DNA of 43,238 bases from a bacterium (GTDB lineage: Bacteria > Armatimonadota > JACIXR01), in assembly GCA_014360465.1 (NCBI GenBank), contig JACIXQ010000012.1, positions 1 through 43,238 on the forward strand, read 5' to 3'. Below, one piece after another: positions 2,332 through 17,007 of the stretch. The position numbers and the translations under genes are program-made. The first letter of the stretch is position 1. Every line of letters starts with the position of its first letter. Below the pieces are notes generated by a model, which saw nothing but the letters and a program-made list of their open reading frames with translations, ran no database searches and was not told the DNA's origin.

Positions 2332-3697
2332 CTACCTCCTCCCAGATTCTTTTGCATAAATTTTCATCTCCCAGGATTTGGGGGATTTCCTTTCTTTTTT
2401 CTTCCCAGGGAATGCATACCCCGGGCTGTTTTCCCTTATCGTGTAATAAACTTTTATCTTCCTGGTGGTCATTGTCTTCACTTTCCGGCAATCTTGAATG
2501 TCCCGCGGAATATACGCCGTATTCGCGGGTGAACTCGGTCATAGCTTTTATATTCTCTATCTTGGCATCGTTTTGGATGATGGCACTGGCGTCCATAATA
2601 TAACCGCCATCTGAGGCGACTTCATCTATCAACTTCTTACAGTAAGCCCGAACCTCTTCAGGGGTTCCCTGGCTCAGAAGTGTGTTGGGTAGCCCGCCGC
2701 TTATGCAGAACTTATCTCCCAACTTTCTTTTCACATAGAAGATGTCGCCCTTATCCACATGGTATACAATACTCCCTTCTGGCAGTTCTCTGAAGCTATC
2801 AAGATGGTAATCCCAATTCCCCTCAGCATAGAACAATACTTGATGTCCATATCTCCAGAGTTCCTCAATTATGGGCTTTAAGGTCGGCCAATAGTGGGAA
2901 AGGAAAGTTTGTTTATTAACGAAGGGAACGCAGCCCCTGTGCATCCAAAAGCCGATTGGAACCTGTTTATTGGGGTCAGCTGTCGTAAGCGCTACATAGA
3001 AGAGATGAGGTTGAAGAGCCTCGCAGGCTTTGAGCACCTTATCGGGTTGAGTGAACATATCCATTGTGAGTCCGATATAGCCCCTGAGTTTGTCGGCAAT
3101 TATGTCAAATGGAGCTTTCAATATGCCTGCTATAGCTGATACGGTTCCCGTTTCCTTTCTCATCCTTTCCACTTGATTGCCCAGGGCGGTGAAGTATTTC
3201 TGCATAGCCATTCCGCCTTTCACGAATGAAAGGTTGTTGCGATAAGTTGCGGGCTTGCCAGGAGGCACGACATCTTGTGAAACTCGGGGAAGCCAGACAT
3301 TGTAAAGAAAAGCTGTAGGGTCTTCTATAAGCTGGTCGTATTCATCAGCTTTCATAAATGCATTTTCCTCCGGAGGTTCCAGATATTGGAAGCCGAAATC
3401 GGGAGGAATATCAATGCCAGGGATAGCGTAATACTTCAGCCCTATAGCCTGGGTTAAGCCAGTCCATACATATACCATATTGGCAACGGTGGCATCCCAG
3501 TCGAAATCACGGCAACAGATTAGGGTCGCTTCAAAAGCCTTTTCATAATCGTGGGTAACTTCCTGGCAGGTAAATCCCGCGTATTTCGCTACGAATTCGG
3601 CGACGAATGGGCGAATTGGAACGCAGTCAGGCATCTCATTCCTCATAGCGGTGACATATCTCGCTAATCTCTTTTGGTAAAGTTGTTCTACATCCAT
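2285..3697 (-). CDS. Uroporphyrinogen decarboxylase (URO-D)-like family protein
   Basis: Long ORF resembling URO-D/corrinoid methyltransferase-like proteins (KAPFDIIADKLRGYIGLTMDMF..., YHVDKGDIFYVKRKLGDKFCISGGLPNTLL). Start at MDVEQ preceded by GGAG. Confidence 0.7.
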   Translation of the reverse strand: MDVEQLYQKRLARYVTAMRNEMPDCVPIRPFVAEFVAKYAGFTCQEVTHDYEKAFEATLICCRDFDWDATVANMVYVWTGLTQAIGLKYYAIPGIDIPPDFGFQYLEPPEENAFMKADEYDQLIEDPTAFLYNVWLPRVSQDVVPPGKPATYRNNLSFVKGGMAMQKYFTALGNQVERMRKETGTVSAIAGILKAPFDIIADKLRGYIGLTMDMFTQPDKVLKACEALQPHLFYVALTTADPNKQVPIGFWMHRGCVPFVNKQTFLSHYWPTLKPIIEELWRYGHQVLFYAEGNWDYHLDSFRELPEGSIVYHVDKGDIFYVKRKLGDKFCISGGLPNTLLSQGTPEEVRAYCKKLIDEVASDGGYIMDASAIIQNDAKIENIKAMTEFTREYGVYSAGHSRLPESEDNDHQEDKSLLHDKGKQPGVCIPWEEKRKEIPQILGDENLCKRIWEEVDALGYSYIWQILLSF

Positions 3698-7933: not shown

Positions 7934-11396
<3,463 letters not shown>

Positions 11397-11502: not shown

Positions 11503-12918
11503 TCACACGCTATAGTAGAGGTAAAACTCGTATGGATGAGGGCGAAGGGCAACTTCATCAGCTTCTTTCCATTTTAGCTCCAACCATTTGTCAATCACAT
11601 CCTCGGTGAAAACACCGCCTCTCAGGAGAAACTCGTGGTCCTCTTCCAGTGCTTTAAGGGCATCGTGAAGGGAGCTAGGAAGAGATTTTATCTCTCTTGT
11701 TTCATCAGGTGCCAGTTTGTAGAGGTCAATATCATAAGGTTCGCCCGGGTCTATTTGGTTTATAATTCCATCTATTCCCGCCATAAGCATAGCAGCGAAT
11801 GCGAGGTAAGGATTAGCAGAAGGGTCGGGAGGACGAAATTCTATTCTTTTAGCAGAAGGATTTGCTGAATACATTGGGATACGGATGCAGGCGGAACGAT
11901 TTCTCTGTGAATATACGAGATTTACAGGAGCTTCATAACCGGGAACGAGGCGACGGTAAGAATTGGTTGTTGGGGCACAAAAAGAGAGAAGGGCTGGGGC
12001 GTGTTTAAGCAGACCACCGATATACCAGAGGGCAAGCTGTGATAGATAGGCATAACCGTTCGGGGAGAAGAAAAGGTTCTGCCCTTCTTTCCATAAACTC
12101 TGGTGAGTGTGCATCCCGGATGCATTGTCGCCGAAGAGTGGTTTTGGCATAAATGTAGCAGTTAAGCCATATTGATGAGCTGTATTCTTCACCACATACT
12201 TGTAAATCATAACATTGTCACCCATTTTTGTAAGAGGGGCATATCTCAAATCTATTTCCCCTTGTCCAGCAGTAGCAACTTCATGATGGTGAGCCTCAAC
12301 TCTTATCCCACAAGCGAGAAGGTTTTTCACCATCTTGGAGCGCAATTCCTGAAAGCGGTCTATCGGTGGGGTAGGGAAATAGCCTCCTTTGAAGCGAGGT
12401 CTATGACCTAAGTTTGGTGATGAATTTGTTGCCGAGTTCCAAATACCCTCCTCGCTATCTACTTCATAGAAGCAACGATGAGCCTCGTTCTGGTAATGAA
12501 CATTGCTGAATATGAAGAATTCCACCTCAGGACCCCAGAAAGATATATCTGCTATCCCACTTTCTCTCAGGTATTTTTCCGCCTTTTTGGCGATTGCCCT
12601 GGGGTCTCTTGAATATGGTTGACGAGTTATCGGGTCCACCACATCACATATGAACACCAGGGTTGTGGGAGATAACAGGGGGTCAATGAACATCGTTTCC
12701 ATATCCGGTACTAGTATCATATCGCTCTCGTGGATCTCCTGAAATCCGACTATTGAAGAACCATCAAAACCGATACCCTCTGTGAAGAGCTCTTCGCTTA
12801 GCTCTTCTACCGGTATGGAGAAGTGTTGCCAACCTCCAAGAAGGTCGGTGAAGCGAAGGTCAACTACCTGGACGCCCTTTTCTAGCGCCCTCACTAATTT
12901 CTCTTTGCTCTTCAGCAT
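11503..12918 (-). CDS. glnA: Glutamine synthetase type I
   Basis: 471 aa: VDLRFTDLLGGWQHFSIP, GFDGSSIVGFQEIHESDM, EVEFFIF, GQGEIDLRYAPL, MPKPLFGDNASGMHTHQSLW, ending HPYEFYLYYSV. Confidence 0.97.
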   Translation of the reverse strand: MLKSKEKLVRALEKGVQVVDLRFTDLLGGWQHFSIPVEELSEELFTEGIGFDGSSIVGFQEIHESDMILVPDMETMFIDPLLSPTTLVFICDVVDPITRQPYSRDPRAIAKKAEKYLRESGIADISFWGPEVEFFIFSNVHYQNEAHRCFYEVDSEEGIWNSATNSSPNLGHRPRFKGGYFPTPPIDRFQELRSKMVKNLLACGIRVEAHHHEVATAGQGEIDLRYAPLTKMGDNVMIYKYVVKNTAHQYGLTATFMPKPLFGDNASGMHTHQSLWKEGQNLFFSPNGYAYLSQLALWYIGGLLKHAPALLSFCAPTTNSYRRLVPGYEAPVNLVYSQRNRSACIRIPMYSANPSAKRIEFRPPDPSANPYLAFAAMLMAGIDGIINQIDPGEPYDIDLYKLAPDETREIKSLPSSLHDALKALEEDHEFLLRGGVFTEDVIDKWLELKWKEADEVALRPHPYEFYLYYSV

Positions 12919-12953
12919 TTTAAAACACCTCCTTATTTTTTGGATTTAAAAAT

Positions 12954-12988
12954 AAAGGCGTTTCCCCGAAGGAGGGGGAAACGCCTTT
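12954..12988 (-). terminator. Intrinsic terminator in the glnA leader
   Basis: Minus strand AAAGGCGTTTCCCC-CTCCTTC-GGGGAAACGCCTTTATTTTT; 14-bp perfect stem followed by a U-rich tract. Confidence 0.85.
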
Positions 12989-13016
12989 GTTTCCTTTTCG
13001 GGCGCGTCGTTGCGCC
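12977..13016 (-). promoter_or_regulatory. Candidate ANTAR-type dual-hairpin antiterminator, glnA leader
   Basis: P1 GGCGC-AACGAC-GCGCC (13016-13001); 6-nt linker; P2 GGAAAC-AAAGGC-GTTTCC (12994-12977). Both hexaloops have A1 and G4; P2 overlaps the terminator. Confidence 0.7.
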
Positions 13017-13046
13017 AGTTTTGTTTTTTATATAGTTGTTTTAATT

Positions 13047-13775
13047 TTAATGAGTATAAAGGCTACCGTAAGGGCGATGGGAACGAGGCGATATCTTTTT
13101 AAATTCCTCCAGTGATACATTGCCTCTTTTTACACCGAAAAGCTCGAAATACTGGCTGATGTATCCAGCGAGCTCGGATTCGTCTTCCTCGGAAAGTGGT
13201 GTTATGGATACCTCTTTCCCGAGAAGATGTTCGTCTATATCCCCACGCACATATATCTTCCCTCCATGCATTCCTGTCCCGCAATATTTGCCAATGGGAA
13301 CCGTTCCCCTTAGGTTGAGGACTATAATTAATCCTCCCGCCATATATTCGCCGAGGAAATCTTTTGCCGAATCACCAATAACGATGACTGGTCTTAAATT
13401 ATCATAAGCTTTCATATGAATACCTACTCTATAACCAACTTCATCTCTGATAAAAATCTCTCCACCTCTCATTCCATAGCCGATTATGTCGCCTGCTCTT
13501 CCGTGGATTATTATCTTTCCATCACTCATAGTGTTTCCTATCCCGTCTTGCCCGTTCCCTATAACCTCAATATATGGTCCCTGCATGAAGGCACCCAAAT
13601 CATTTCCAGGGGTTCCCTCTATCACTATCTTTATTTTATTTTTTATACCAGCCGCTATGTAGCGTTGACCAGTAGCTCCAATTATCTTGAATTCTTGTTC
13701 GCCGTTTTTAATAGCCTCTCTGATAATTTCGTTCAATTGCCTATAATGTAATCCGTTTGCCTCAATTATTTTCAT
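13047..13775 (-). CDS. gltB3: Glutamate synthase GXGXG-domain subunit
   Basis: 242 aa beta-helix repeats: GNDLGAFMQGPYIEVIGNGQDGIGNTMSDGKIIIHGRAGDIIGYGMRGGEIFIRDEVGYRVGIHM. Confidence 0.88.
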   Translation of the reverse strand: MKIIEANGLHYRQLNEIIREAIKNGEQEFKIIGATGQRYIAAGIKNKIKIVIEGTPGNDLGAFMQGPYIEVIGNGQDGIGNTMSDGKIIIHGRAGDIIGYGMRGGEIFIRDEVGYRVGIHMKAYDNLRPVIVIGDSAKDFLGEYMAGGLIIVLNLRGTVPIGKYCGTGMHGGKIYVRGDIDEHLLGKEVSITPLSEEDESELAGYISQYFELFGVKRGNVSLEEFKKISPRSHRPYGSLYTH

Positions 13776-15040
13776 AGCCCTATCGCCTCTTCTATCTTCC
13801 TTTTACGATATTCTCGGGGTAGGTAAATGAGACCGAAATCATCGTCTAAAAGCCGCGACTTGAATGGGGAAACATCCAGATGGTCCTTAATCAAACCACA
13901 GAAGATACCGGCTCTTTCAATATTTCCCACGAATACGGCACCTACAACCCTATTATCCCGCAATATAACCTTCCTGTAATTTATTCCCTCTTCTTTAGAG
14001 AAAACCTCGTAATCATTTCCTTCAGGTTCGGTCAGCCCCATAGAGATTGTGGGAATACCACATACTTCCACGGAGTTCATCGGGAATGTTCCGGGATAAA
14101 ACTTATCTTCGCCCAACATATTTGCACCCGCTACCTTTCCTCCCTCGGTGGCGTTTGGCCAGATAGCGATAGGCTGATTTTTACCTGATATTATATTTTT
14201 TATCTCCACCACATCCCCAGCGGCATAAATATTGGGAATGTTGGTTTCCATCTTCTCGTTTACGATAATGCCACGGTTGATCTCTACTCCGCTTTCTCGG
14301 AGAAAGCTGACCGAGGGAGCGACACCAATCGCAAAAATGAGCATATCGCAGGGTAAAATCTCTCCACTTCTCAATGATACCTCTTCCACCTTTTTTTGCC
14401 CTCTTATCTCTTGAACTGTATTGGAGGTTATGACTTTCACACTTTCTTTTTCCAACCGCCATTGCAATATGTTAGATGCCTTTTTGTCCAAGGTTAAGCT
14501 TAGAATACGGTCGGCAAGCTCTACAAGAGTAATATTTAAGTTCCATTCCAATAGCGCTTCTGTAGCTTTCAGACCTATCAGTCCGCCGCCAACTATTAAA
14601 ACTCTTTCTGCCTTTTCAACTTCTAAATACTTGGCTATATTTTTTGCGTCGTTGAGGGTAGTGAAGGTGAAAACCCCTTTTAGCTCCTTCCCTTCCACTG
14701 CTGGGATGATTGGCTTTCCGCCGGCGGCGATGAGCAACTTATCGTAAGTAAATTTTCGTCCTTTGGTGGAATAAACGATTCCTTCCCGGATATTGACTTC
14801 TACGGCGGGCTCTTCCAGAAAAGCTTTAACTCCATATCTCTCGTAAAAATCGCGACCTTTATAGAAAAGGCGTTCTTCTTCTATTTTCCCAGCGAGAAGA
14901 TAGGAAATCAGTGGGCGAGAATAAGGAATATATGGTTCCTCACTGAGGAGCGTTATCTCTACCTTGCTGCCTTTACCCCTGATCGTCTCAATGGCTGAAA
15001 TTGCTGCTGGACCGCTTCCAATTATCAGGAATCTTTCCAT
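13772..15040 (-). CDS. FAD-dependent NAD(P)-linked pyridine nucleotide oxidoreductase, glutamate synthase-associated
   Basis: FLIIGSGPAAISAIETIRG, VLIVGGGLIGLKATEALLEW, NIPNIYAAGDVVEI; 4-nt overlap with gltB3. Confidence 0.88.
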   Translation of the reverse strand: MERFLIIGSGPAAISAIETIRGKGSKVEITLLSEEPYIPYSRPLISYLLAGKIEEERLFYKGRDFYERYGVKAFLEEPAVEVNIREGIVYSTKGRKFTYDKLLIAAGGKPIIPAVEGKELKGVFTFTTLNDAKNIAKYLEVEKAERVLIVGGGLIGLKATEALLEWNLNITLVELADRILSLTLDKKASNILQWRLEKESVKVITSNTVQEIRGQKKVEEVSLRSGEILPCDMLIFAIGVAPSVSFLRESGVEINRGIIVNEKMETNIPNIYAAGDVVEIKNIISGKNQPIAIWPNATEGGKVAGANMLGEDKFYPGTFPMNSVEVCGIPTISMGLTEPEGNDYEVFSKEEGINYRKVILRDNRVVGAVFVGNIERAGIFCGLIKDHLDVSPFKSRLLDDDFGLIYLPREYRKRKIEEAIGL

Positions 15041-15046
15041 AGCAAA

Positions 15047-15478
15047 TCACCTGTACTCAAGTGCCTCGTTTGGGCAATTAGCCACGCAGGCGGGCACTTC
15101 TTCACCGTTGCAGAGGTCGCATTTAGAGACGATTTTGTTATTTTCATCCCTTTTAATCACGCCGAATGGACAAACCATAATGCACATCCAGCAGCCAACA
15201 CATTTATCCTTATCGTGGAGTACGGCTTTCGTCTTTTCATCCCTATACATCGCACCAGTGAGGCAAGCGGACAAACAGGGAGCATCTTCGCAGTGCCTGC
15301 ATTGGAGAGCGAACGAGATATAGCCGCTTTCTTCCACGACGAGCCGTGGAAGCGGGCGAGGGAACTCTTCTTTGAAAGCCTTTATCAGCTTTTTAGAGCG
15401 TGAATGCTGTGCTATGCAATGTATCTCACATAATCGGCAACCGATACAGTATTCTTCATGGATGTATATTCTTTTCAT
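15047..15478 (-). CDS. 4Fe-4S ferredoxin-type electron transfer protein
   Basis: Multiple CxxCxxxxC motifs: CIGCRLCEIHC, CRHCEDAPCLSAC, CVGCWMCIMVCPFGV, CDLCNGEEVPACVANCP. Confidence 0.85.
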   Translation of the reverse strand: MKRIYIHEEYCIGCRLCEIHCIAQHSRSKKLIKAFKEEFPRPLPRLVVEESGYISFALQCRHCEDAPCLSACLTGAMYRDEKTKAVLHDKDKCVGCWMCIMVCPFGVIKRDENNKIVSKCDLCNGEEVPACVANCPNEALEYR

Positions 15479-15480
15479 TT

Positions 15481-17007
15481 TCACCATCCTTCTCCAGCTG
15501 GTTTTATCCCGAGAAGCCGCAATTCCCATTCTTCCAAACCCACTCCCCTTAAATGTTCTCTATTGCCCCGCAAGCTCTCTATCGCATTTATCCCCATACC
15601 ACCTAGCATTTCCTTGAGCTCTTTTGACCATGCGTTTATGAGATTGACCAGTCTGCGTGCGGCTATGTTAGGGTTCAATCTCTTTGATAGGTATGGGTCT
15701 TGAGTTGCGATTCCCCAGTTGCATTTTCCTGTATAGCATTTCTGACAAACATGGCATCCCATAGCTGCTAACGCAGCTGTTCCTATGTAGACAGCATCTG
15801 CCCCCAGGGCTATAGCCTTTATAACATCCGAGCTTTTTCTAAAACCGCCAGCTGCGATAAGCGAGACTTCCTCTCTAATTCCTTCTTCCCTCAATCGGCT
15901 ATCAACCACAGCAATGGCCAGCTCTATCGGTATCCCGACATTGTCCCTTATCACTTGAGGGGCAGCTCCTGTTCCTCCTCTGAGTCCGTCTATGGTGATG
16001 AAATCTGCTCCCGCTCTCGCTATCCCCGTGGCGATGGCAGCGACATTGTGAACAGCAGCGATTTTGACTCCGACCGGTTTCTTGTACTCGGTTGCTTCTT
16101 TCAGGGCATAAATGAGCTGGCGTAGGTCTTCGATTGAATAGATATCGTGGTGGGGGGCAGGTGAGAGGGCATCGGTTCCAGTGGGAATCATCCTCGTCCT
16201 GGAAATCTCTTCTGTTACCTTCTCACCTGGGAGGTGCCCGCCAATGCCAGGTTTTGCTCCTTGCCCTATTTTTATCTCTATAGCTGCTCCCGCATTCAGG
16301 TAATCGGGATGAACCCCGAAGCGTCCCGAAGCTACTTGAACGATTGTATTGGCTCCGAATTTGTAGAGGTCGGGATGTAGTCCACCTTCTCCAGTATTGT
16401 AATAGGTACCAATCTCCTCCGCTGCTCTTGCCAACGCTTGGCAGGCGTTGAAACTTATTGAGCCATAGGACATTGCCGAGAACATTATCGGGGTCTCGAG
16501 TCTTAGCTGGGGAGGTAGCTGGGTTTTTACTTTTACTGTGTCTCTTTCCTGGCTTCGTTCAACTTCCACATATCTAGGTTTTCTGCCGATGAAGGTGCGT
16601 AATTCCATAGGTTCTCTGAGGGGGTCGATTGAAGGGTTTGTTACCTGTGAAGCGTTGAGCAAGATGCGGTCCCAGTAAATTGGATAGTCCTTATCGCATC
16701 CCATTCCTGTGAGGATTATCGCTCCCGATTCTGCTTGGCGATAGATATCGTTGAGAATTCCCGGGGTCCAATTTTTATTATCCTTAATGTCAAAAGGATA
16801 TTTTATGATGTTGAGGGCATCGGTGGGGCAGAGAGCCTCACAGCGGTGGCAGCCTACGCATTTGGAGTCGTCGCTGTAGACTTCGTCTTTCTCCGGGTCG
16901 TAGATATGAGCTTCAAAGGCACATTGCCTAACGCAAACCTGACAGGCAATGCATTTTTCTTTATCTCTTATTATTTTGAACTCAGGAAATATAGTGCTCA
17001 GTGGCAT
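15481..17007 (-). CDS. gltB2: Glutamate synthase FMN-binding core with N-terminal 2[4Fe-4S] domain
   Basis: [33 protein letters not shown], then [57 protein letters not shown]. Confidence 0.93.

Follow-up and report, generated by a model that had tools for sequence, protein, structure and literature searches.

What controls the expression of a glutamine synthetase gene, glnA, that directly follows a glutamate synthase operon in a bacterium of the Armatimonadota lineage JACIXR01? The gene lies on the minus strand of contig JACIXQ010000012.1 (assembly GCA_014360465.1), which was analysed over the 43,238 nucleotides (nt) referred to here as the window. An intergenic gap of 128 nt extends from the stop codon of a GXGXG-type glutamate synthase gene at 13047 to the glnA ATG at 12918. 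An earlier note on this DNA had described two short hairpins and an intrinsic terminator in this gap, and had proposed that glnA is controlled through antitermination by an unlinked ANTAR-domain protein. The computations described below, on the anatomy of the leader, the single ANTAR protein of the genome and the covarying elements of relatives, support this proposal, and the leader very probably attenuates transcription of glnA in response to an ANTAR protein, and probably that of the downstream nadE and glnB genes as well. The elements of the leader are as follows:

13016-13001, minus strand: P1 hairpin GGCGC[AACGAC]GCGCC, with a 5-base-pair (bp) stem, a C-G closing pair and an A1/G4 hexaloop (A at position 1, G at position 4); from the sequence and a scanner; -9.4 kcal/mol
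13000-12995, minus strand: linker CGAAAA, 6 nt; from the sequence
12994-12977, minus strand: P2 antiterminator hairpin GGAAAC[AAAGGC]GTTTCC, with a 6-bp stem and an A1/G4 hexaloop; from the sequence and a scanner; -6.8 kcal/mol
12988-12954, minus strand: intrinsic terminator of 14 perfect bp with the 7-nt loop CTCCTTC; from folding; -24.7 kcal/mol
12953-12948, minus strand: terminator U-tract ATTTTT; from the sequence
12934-12926, minus strand: Shine-Dalgarno sequence AAGGAGGTG of glnA; from the sequence

Direct reading and an independent scanner reproduced P1, the linker, P2 and the 14-bp terminator exactly as first described, to the base, and both loops, AACGAC and AAAGGC, fit the A1/G4 pattern. 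The 5' arm of the terminator contains the loop and the 3' arm of P2, so that the two structures share an arm and are mutually exclusive, as the note had stated. Folding agreed with this: in growing prefixes of the leader, P1 formed first, followed by P1 and P2 together at or shortly past the end of P2, and the terminator appeared only once its 3' arm was present. The entire leader had a folding energy of z = -4.5 relative to dinucleotide shuffles. About 30 nt separate the terminator and its U-tract from the start codon, and the Shine-Dalgarno sequence lies outside P1, P2 and the terminator. Since the terminator is far more stable than P2 (-24.7 versus -6.8 kcal/mol), a bound protein would need to hold P2. 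Stems in ANTAR elements are expected to have 3 bp or more, and linkers to be about as long as the 5-12 nt of the Enterococcus faecalis eut leaders (PMC3369931); the 5- and 6-bp stems and the 6-nt linker of the glnA leader agree with both. As judged from its sequence, the leader has every feature of ANTAR antiterminators that can be tested at that level.

This arrangement exceeds chance. When both strands of the window were scanned for two A1/G4 hexaloop hairpins of at least 5 bp separated by a linker of 3-12 nt, the glnA leader was the sole pair found. The same scan, run on third-order Markov sequence (80 Mb) that matched the window in composition, returned 279 pairs, five of which overlapped a terminator of at least 10 pairs, none with stems comparable to those of the glnA leader. 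This corresponds to an expectation of ≈0.005 pairs with a terminator for the two strands of the window together, and of ≈1e-5 for the 128-nt gap. By a graded score, the leader reached 55, whereas first-order control sequence totalling 7 Mb never exceeded 43.

The host draft genome (2.69 Mb in 161 contigs, 97.8% complete) encodes exactly one detected ANTAR protein (Pfam ANTAR, 80.7 bits, above the cut-off, E = 2e-22), on contig C151. This regulator consists of an intact receiver domain and an ANTAR domain (Pfam), and a kinase gene with GAF_PdtaS, HisKA_2 and ATPase domains lies directly upstream, overlapping it. The term "unlinked" used in the earlier note is correct in that the regulator is on another contig, and in a draft of 161 contigs it means only that. 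Over its full length, the best solved relatives of the regulator were 1s8n (E = 6e-57), which was deposited as a putative antiterminator and which we take to be Rv1626/PdtaR, and EutV (6wsh, E = 2.5e-44). The phosphoacceptor Asp54 aligns with Asp54 of EutV. Of 11 RNA-contact residues mapped from the EutV-RNA structure (PMC8934654), seven are identical in the C151 regulator (R142, K143, K149, E160, Y164, M172 and R175) and K147 is replaced by arginine; those that surround the flipped G4 (R142, K149, E160, Y164 and M172) are all kept.

Similar elements were found in relatives. The GlnA proteins of the phylum nearest to that of the window, with 68-70% identity, belong to a family, f20, in which dual hexaloops stand before glnA and glnB in one genome (G038), an amt-type gene in another (G048), and, in a third (G025), two amt-type genes, glnB, and a BBP2-porin gene just after a third amt. 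Dual hexaloops also precede the second glnA-type gene in Moorella stamsii and M. mulderi. Ten elements were aligned with a covariance model, and this alignment is therefore shaped by the model, but a separate hairpin scanner also detected each of the elements. For model R1, because MAFFT misaligned untrimmed seeds, the seeds were trimmed, and one linker was shortened by two bases. All nine pairs were kept, with 100% of cells paired, and seven of the nine had changed on both sides. The 27 double-changed cells compare with 6.5 in shuffles, and shifting the pairing abolished the signal. The loops begin with AANG in 20/20 cases, closed by a C-G or U-G pair. Among the leaders of relatives, stem sequences and terminators vary but the loops and P1 are retained; the earlier note had named the reverse pattern, a terminator kept by itself, along with the lack of any ANTAR protein, as grounds for refuting its proposal, and neither was observed. 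A search of the host genome with the covariance model, also suggested there, gave a single strong match, the glnA leader, although the window was among the seeds and its E-value is therefore not independent; the next match had E = 0.86. The weaker matches were rejected, as they had no convincing dual hairpins. A genome scan with the pattern CAANGNNG-N10-34-CAANGNNG was too unspecific to be of use (258 matches versus 119 for the reversed pattern); of 30 flanked matches, only the glnA leader had stems.

Several other leaders were noted. In G025, the glnB-amt element (L197, 9669-9585, minus strand) has a dual A1/G4 hexaloop and no terminator; instead, P2 competes with a hairpin that masks the Shine-Dalgarno sequence, the 3' arm of P2, GCCCCTCC, pairing with the amt Shine-Dalgarno sequence GGAGGGG. 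This element recalls the translational ANTAR targets (PMC8164766). At L202 (G009:C25:47514-47559, minus strand), a dual hexaloop, AGGGC[AAAGGC]GCCCT ... AGGAG ... GGAC[AAAGAT]GTCC, carries a Shine-Dalgarno-like sequence in its linker, and a citrate synthase-like frame, so named by inspection only, starts from an ATG that itself begins within the loop of P2. Upstream of the first Moorella glnA (L034-L036, about 2840-2900, plus strand), a single hexaloop, GAGC[AAAGAC]GCTC, overlaps a terminator, with no clear canonical P1. The glnA leaders of family f4 (L009-L013 and L213-L221), from nine species, are conserved and contain a terminator, a sequence that resembles a promoter and, possibly, two G1/G4 hexaloops, AGGC[GAGGTA]GCCT and GAGG[GACGCT]CCTC. 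Strong matches to this leader occur once per genome, only before glnA. The putative hairpins displayed no clear covariation, and Rfam gave no match at the leader in the five f4 leaders searched; these leaders may be ANTAR targets of a variant type or attenuators of some other kind.

We considered the possibility that the terminator simply ends the upstream glutamate synthase operon, constitutively or as a fixed partial attenuator, and that the fit of P1 and P2 is accidental. The terminator is indeed strong by itself and stands directly after an operon, and the A1/G4 loops fix just four bases. However, the count expected by chance in the gap, the presence of an ANTAR protein in the genome, and the recurrence of these dual hexaloops, their stems covarying, in front of nitrogen genes of relatives all argue against such a coincidence, which we consider very unlikely. 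We regard it as just as improbable that the leader is an ANTAR target at which the bound protein represses or acts chiefly on translation, like the mycobacterial and actinobacterial elements that overlap ribosome-binding sites. The C151 regulator is closest to PdtaR, ANTAR targets of mycobacteria can exert their effect on translation (PMC8164766), and the glnB-amt element of G025 overlaps a Shine-Dalgarno-masking hairpin; in the glnA leader, however, P2 falls inside an intrinsic terminator that is followed by a U-tract, and the position of the Shine-Dalgarno sequence, clear of all three structures, speaks for control of transcription. The exclusivity of P2 and terminator does not in itself name a ligand, and some other RNA-binding protein, a small RNA or a metabolite might choose between them. 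This is the least probable of the alternatives, and we give it hardly any credence: no Rfam family, riboswitches included, matched the window at the gathering score, and a relaxed search of the leader gave merely weak matches far under the cut-offs, whereas ANTAR targets are marked by just this combination of a dual hexaloop with A1/G4, C-G closing pairs and a linker of this length, and the cell encodes one intact ANTAR protein.

In a sample of 201 genomes from across the phylum, an ANTAR match was present in 149, and strong elements (E < 2e-4) in four, with strict filters that may miss some. In favour of an ANTAR-responsive attenuator, three of these four have an ANTAR protein; the fourth genome is 61% complete. 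Other observations weigh against such an attenuator at glnA. In the phylum, the majority of glnA orthologs are without the element. Genus-mates G001 and G002 do not have the glnA of the window, leaving no close-range comparison of the leader, and G002 does have an ANTAR protein, with no such leader found, indicating that the protein has or had other targets. The single strong target in the host genome amounts to a small regulon. Finally, three of the 11 EutV RNA-contact residues differ in the C151 regulator; in EutV, these residues (R168, N173 and R177) contact backbone or ribose (PMC8934654). From this pattern of presence and absence, glnA and its leader are probably an addition to the genus, served by a regulator that is also present in G002.

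An ANTAR-responsive attenuator would work as follows. When the active regulator is absent, the polymerase would make P1 and P2, the stronger terminator would then capture the loop and 3' arm of P2, and transcription would stop before glnA. The remaining steps, phosphorylation, binding and antitermination, we infer from EutV and NasR. The receiver-ANTAR regulator would be phosphorylated, probably by the adjacent PdtaS-like kinase, dimerise, and bind the hexaloops of P1 and P2 through A1/G4, by analogy with EutV (PMC3369931, PMC8934654). Bound in this way, it would hold P2 until the polymerase has passed and can continue through glnA, nadE and glnB. Judging by the target genes, nitrogen state is the likely signal. 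These genes and their neighbours are:

11503..12918, minus strand: glnA, type I glutamine synthetase, 471 amino acids (TIGR00653, 657.6 bits, above the cut-off)
9732..11396, minus strand: nadE, NAD+ synthase with amidohydrolase domain, 3' of glnA (PRK13981, 753.8 bits)
9187..9525, minus strand: P-II (GlnB/GlnK) gene from an internal ATG (residues 71-182 of the open reading frame match P-II families)
13047..17007, minus strand: split glutamate synthase genes (FMN/ferredoxin protein, ferredoxin, NAD(P)H oxidoreductase and GXGXG-type subunit), directly upstream of glnA

The nadE gene is probably in the same operon as glnA, and the P-II gene is the probable end of that operon. Between nadE and the P-II gene, at 9549-9701 on the minus strand, lies a 51-residue remnant of an Amt C-terminus (PF00909 positions 349-399), in a different frame from the P-II reading frame; no other Amt match was found in the genome. 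No sigma-70-like promoter was found in 12850-13350, which covers the gap and the sequence just upstream, and the leader may thus act inside a glutamate synthase-glnA transcript. The glutamate synthase transcript may run into the glnA leader; alternatively, transcription might start at a promoter of a different type. A second glutamine synthetase is also encoded in the genome (G000:C135:4908-5912; L211 1180-2520), of a kind present in the genus-mates, and no dual hexaloop was found upstream of this gene or of its orthologs in G001 and G002.

The closest known system is EutV/EutW at the eut leaders of Enterococcus faecalis, which (PMC3369931, PMC8934654) resembles the present one in its two short hairpins, A1/G4 hexaloops and linker length, in the overlap of P2 with an intrinsic terminator, and in a receiver-ANTAR regulator paired with a histidine kinase. 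It differs in that the target here is glnA rather than eut, and in that the regulator is nearer to PdtaR, its gene being on another contig. Genes for glutamine synthetase, glutamate synthase, P-II and ammonium transporters had already been listed by Ramesh et al. 2012 (PMC3369931) as preceded by ANTAR elements, and the accompanying perspective states the same gene classes (PMC3369936). Those elements share the RNA motif and the gene classes with ours; they were reported from other bacteria. The GAF_PdtaS kinase and PdtaR-like regulator are like those of PdtaS/PdtaR-type systems, whose described actinobacterial targets are largely translational; in contrast to the actinobacterial ANTAR RNAs, the element here covers a terminator (PMC8164766).

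The mechanism is thus already known, and the glnA leader is a further good example of it, not new in kind, given one suitable protein in the cell and the same switch before nitrogen genes in distant relatives. The additions are modest: the host lineage, the PdtaS/PdtaR-like partner, and the Shine-Dalgarno-competing element of a relative. The example is a clean one: as only a single ANTAR protein, a single strong leader and a single operon are involved, regulator and target can be matched almost without ambiguity, and the match is easy to test. It also ties a PdtaS/PdtaR-like pair to nitrogen assimilation. A tentative proposal, which we regard as plausible without being quite probable, is that in this lineage the PdtaS/PdtaR-type system would serve as a regulator of nitrogen assimilation through antitermination at glnA, and that in the sister family it would combine antitermination with the unmasking of a Shine-Dalgarno sequence at glnB-amt.
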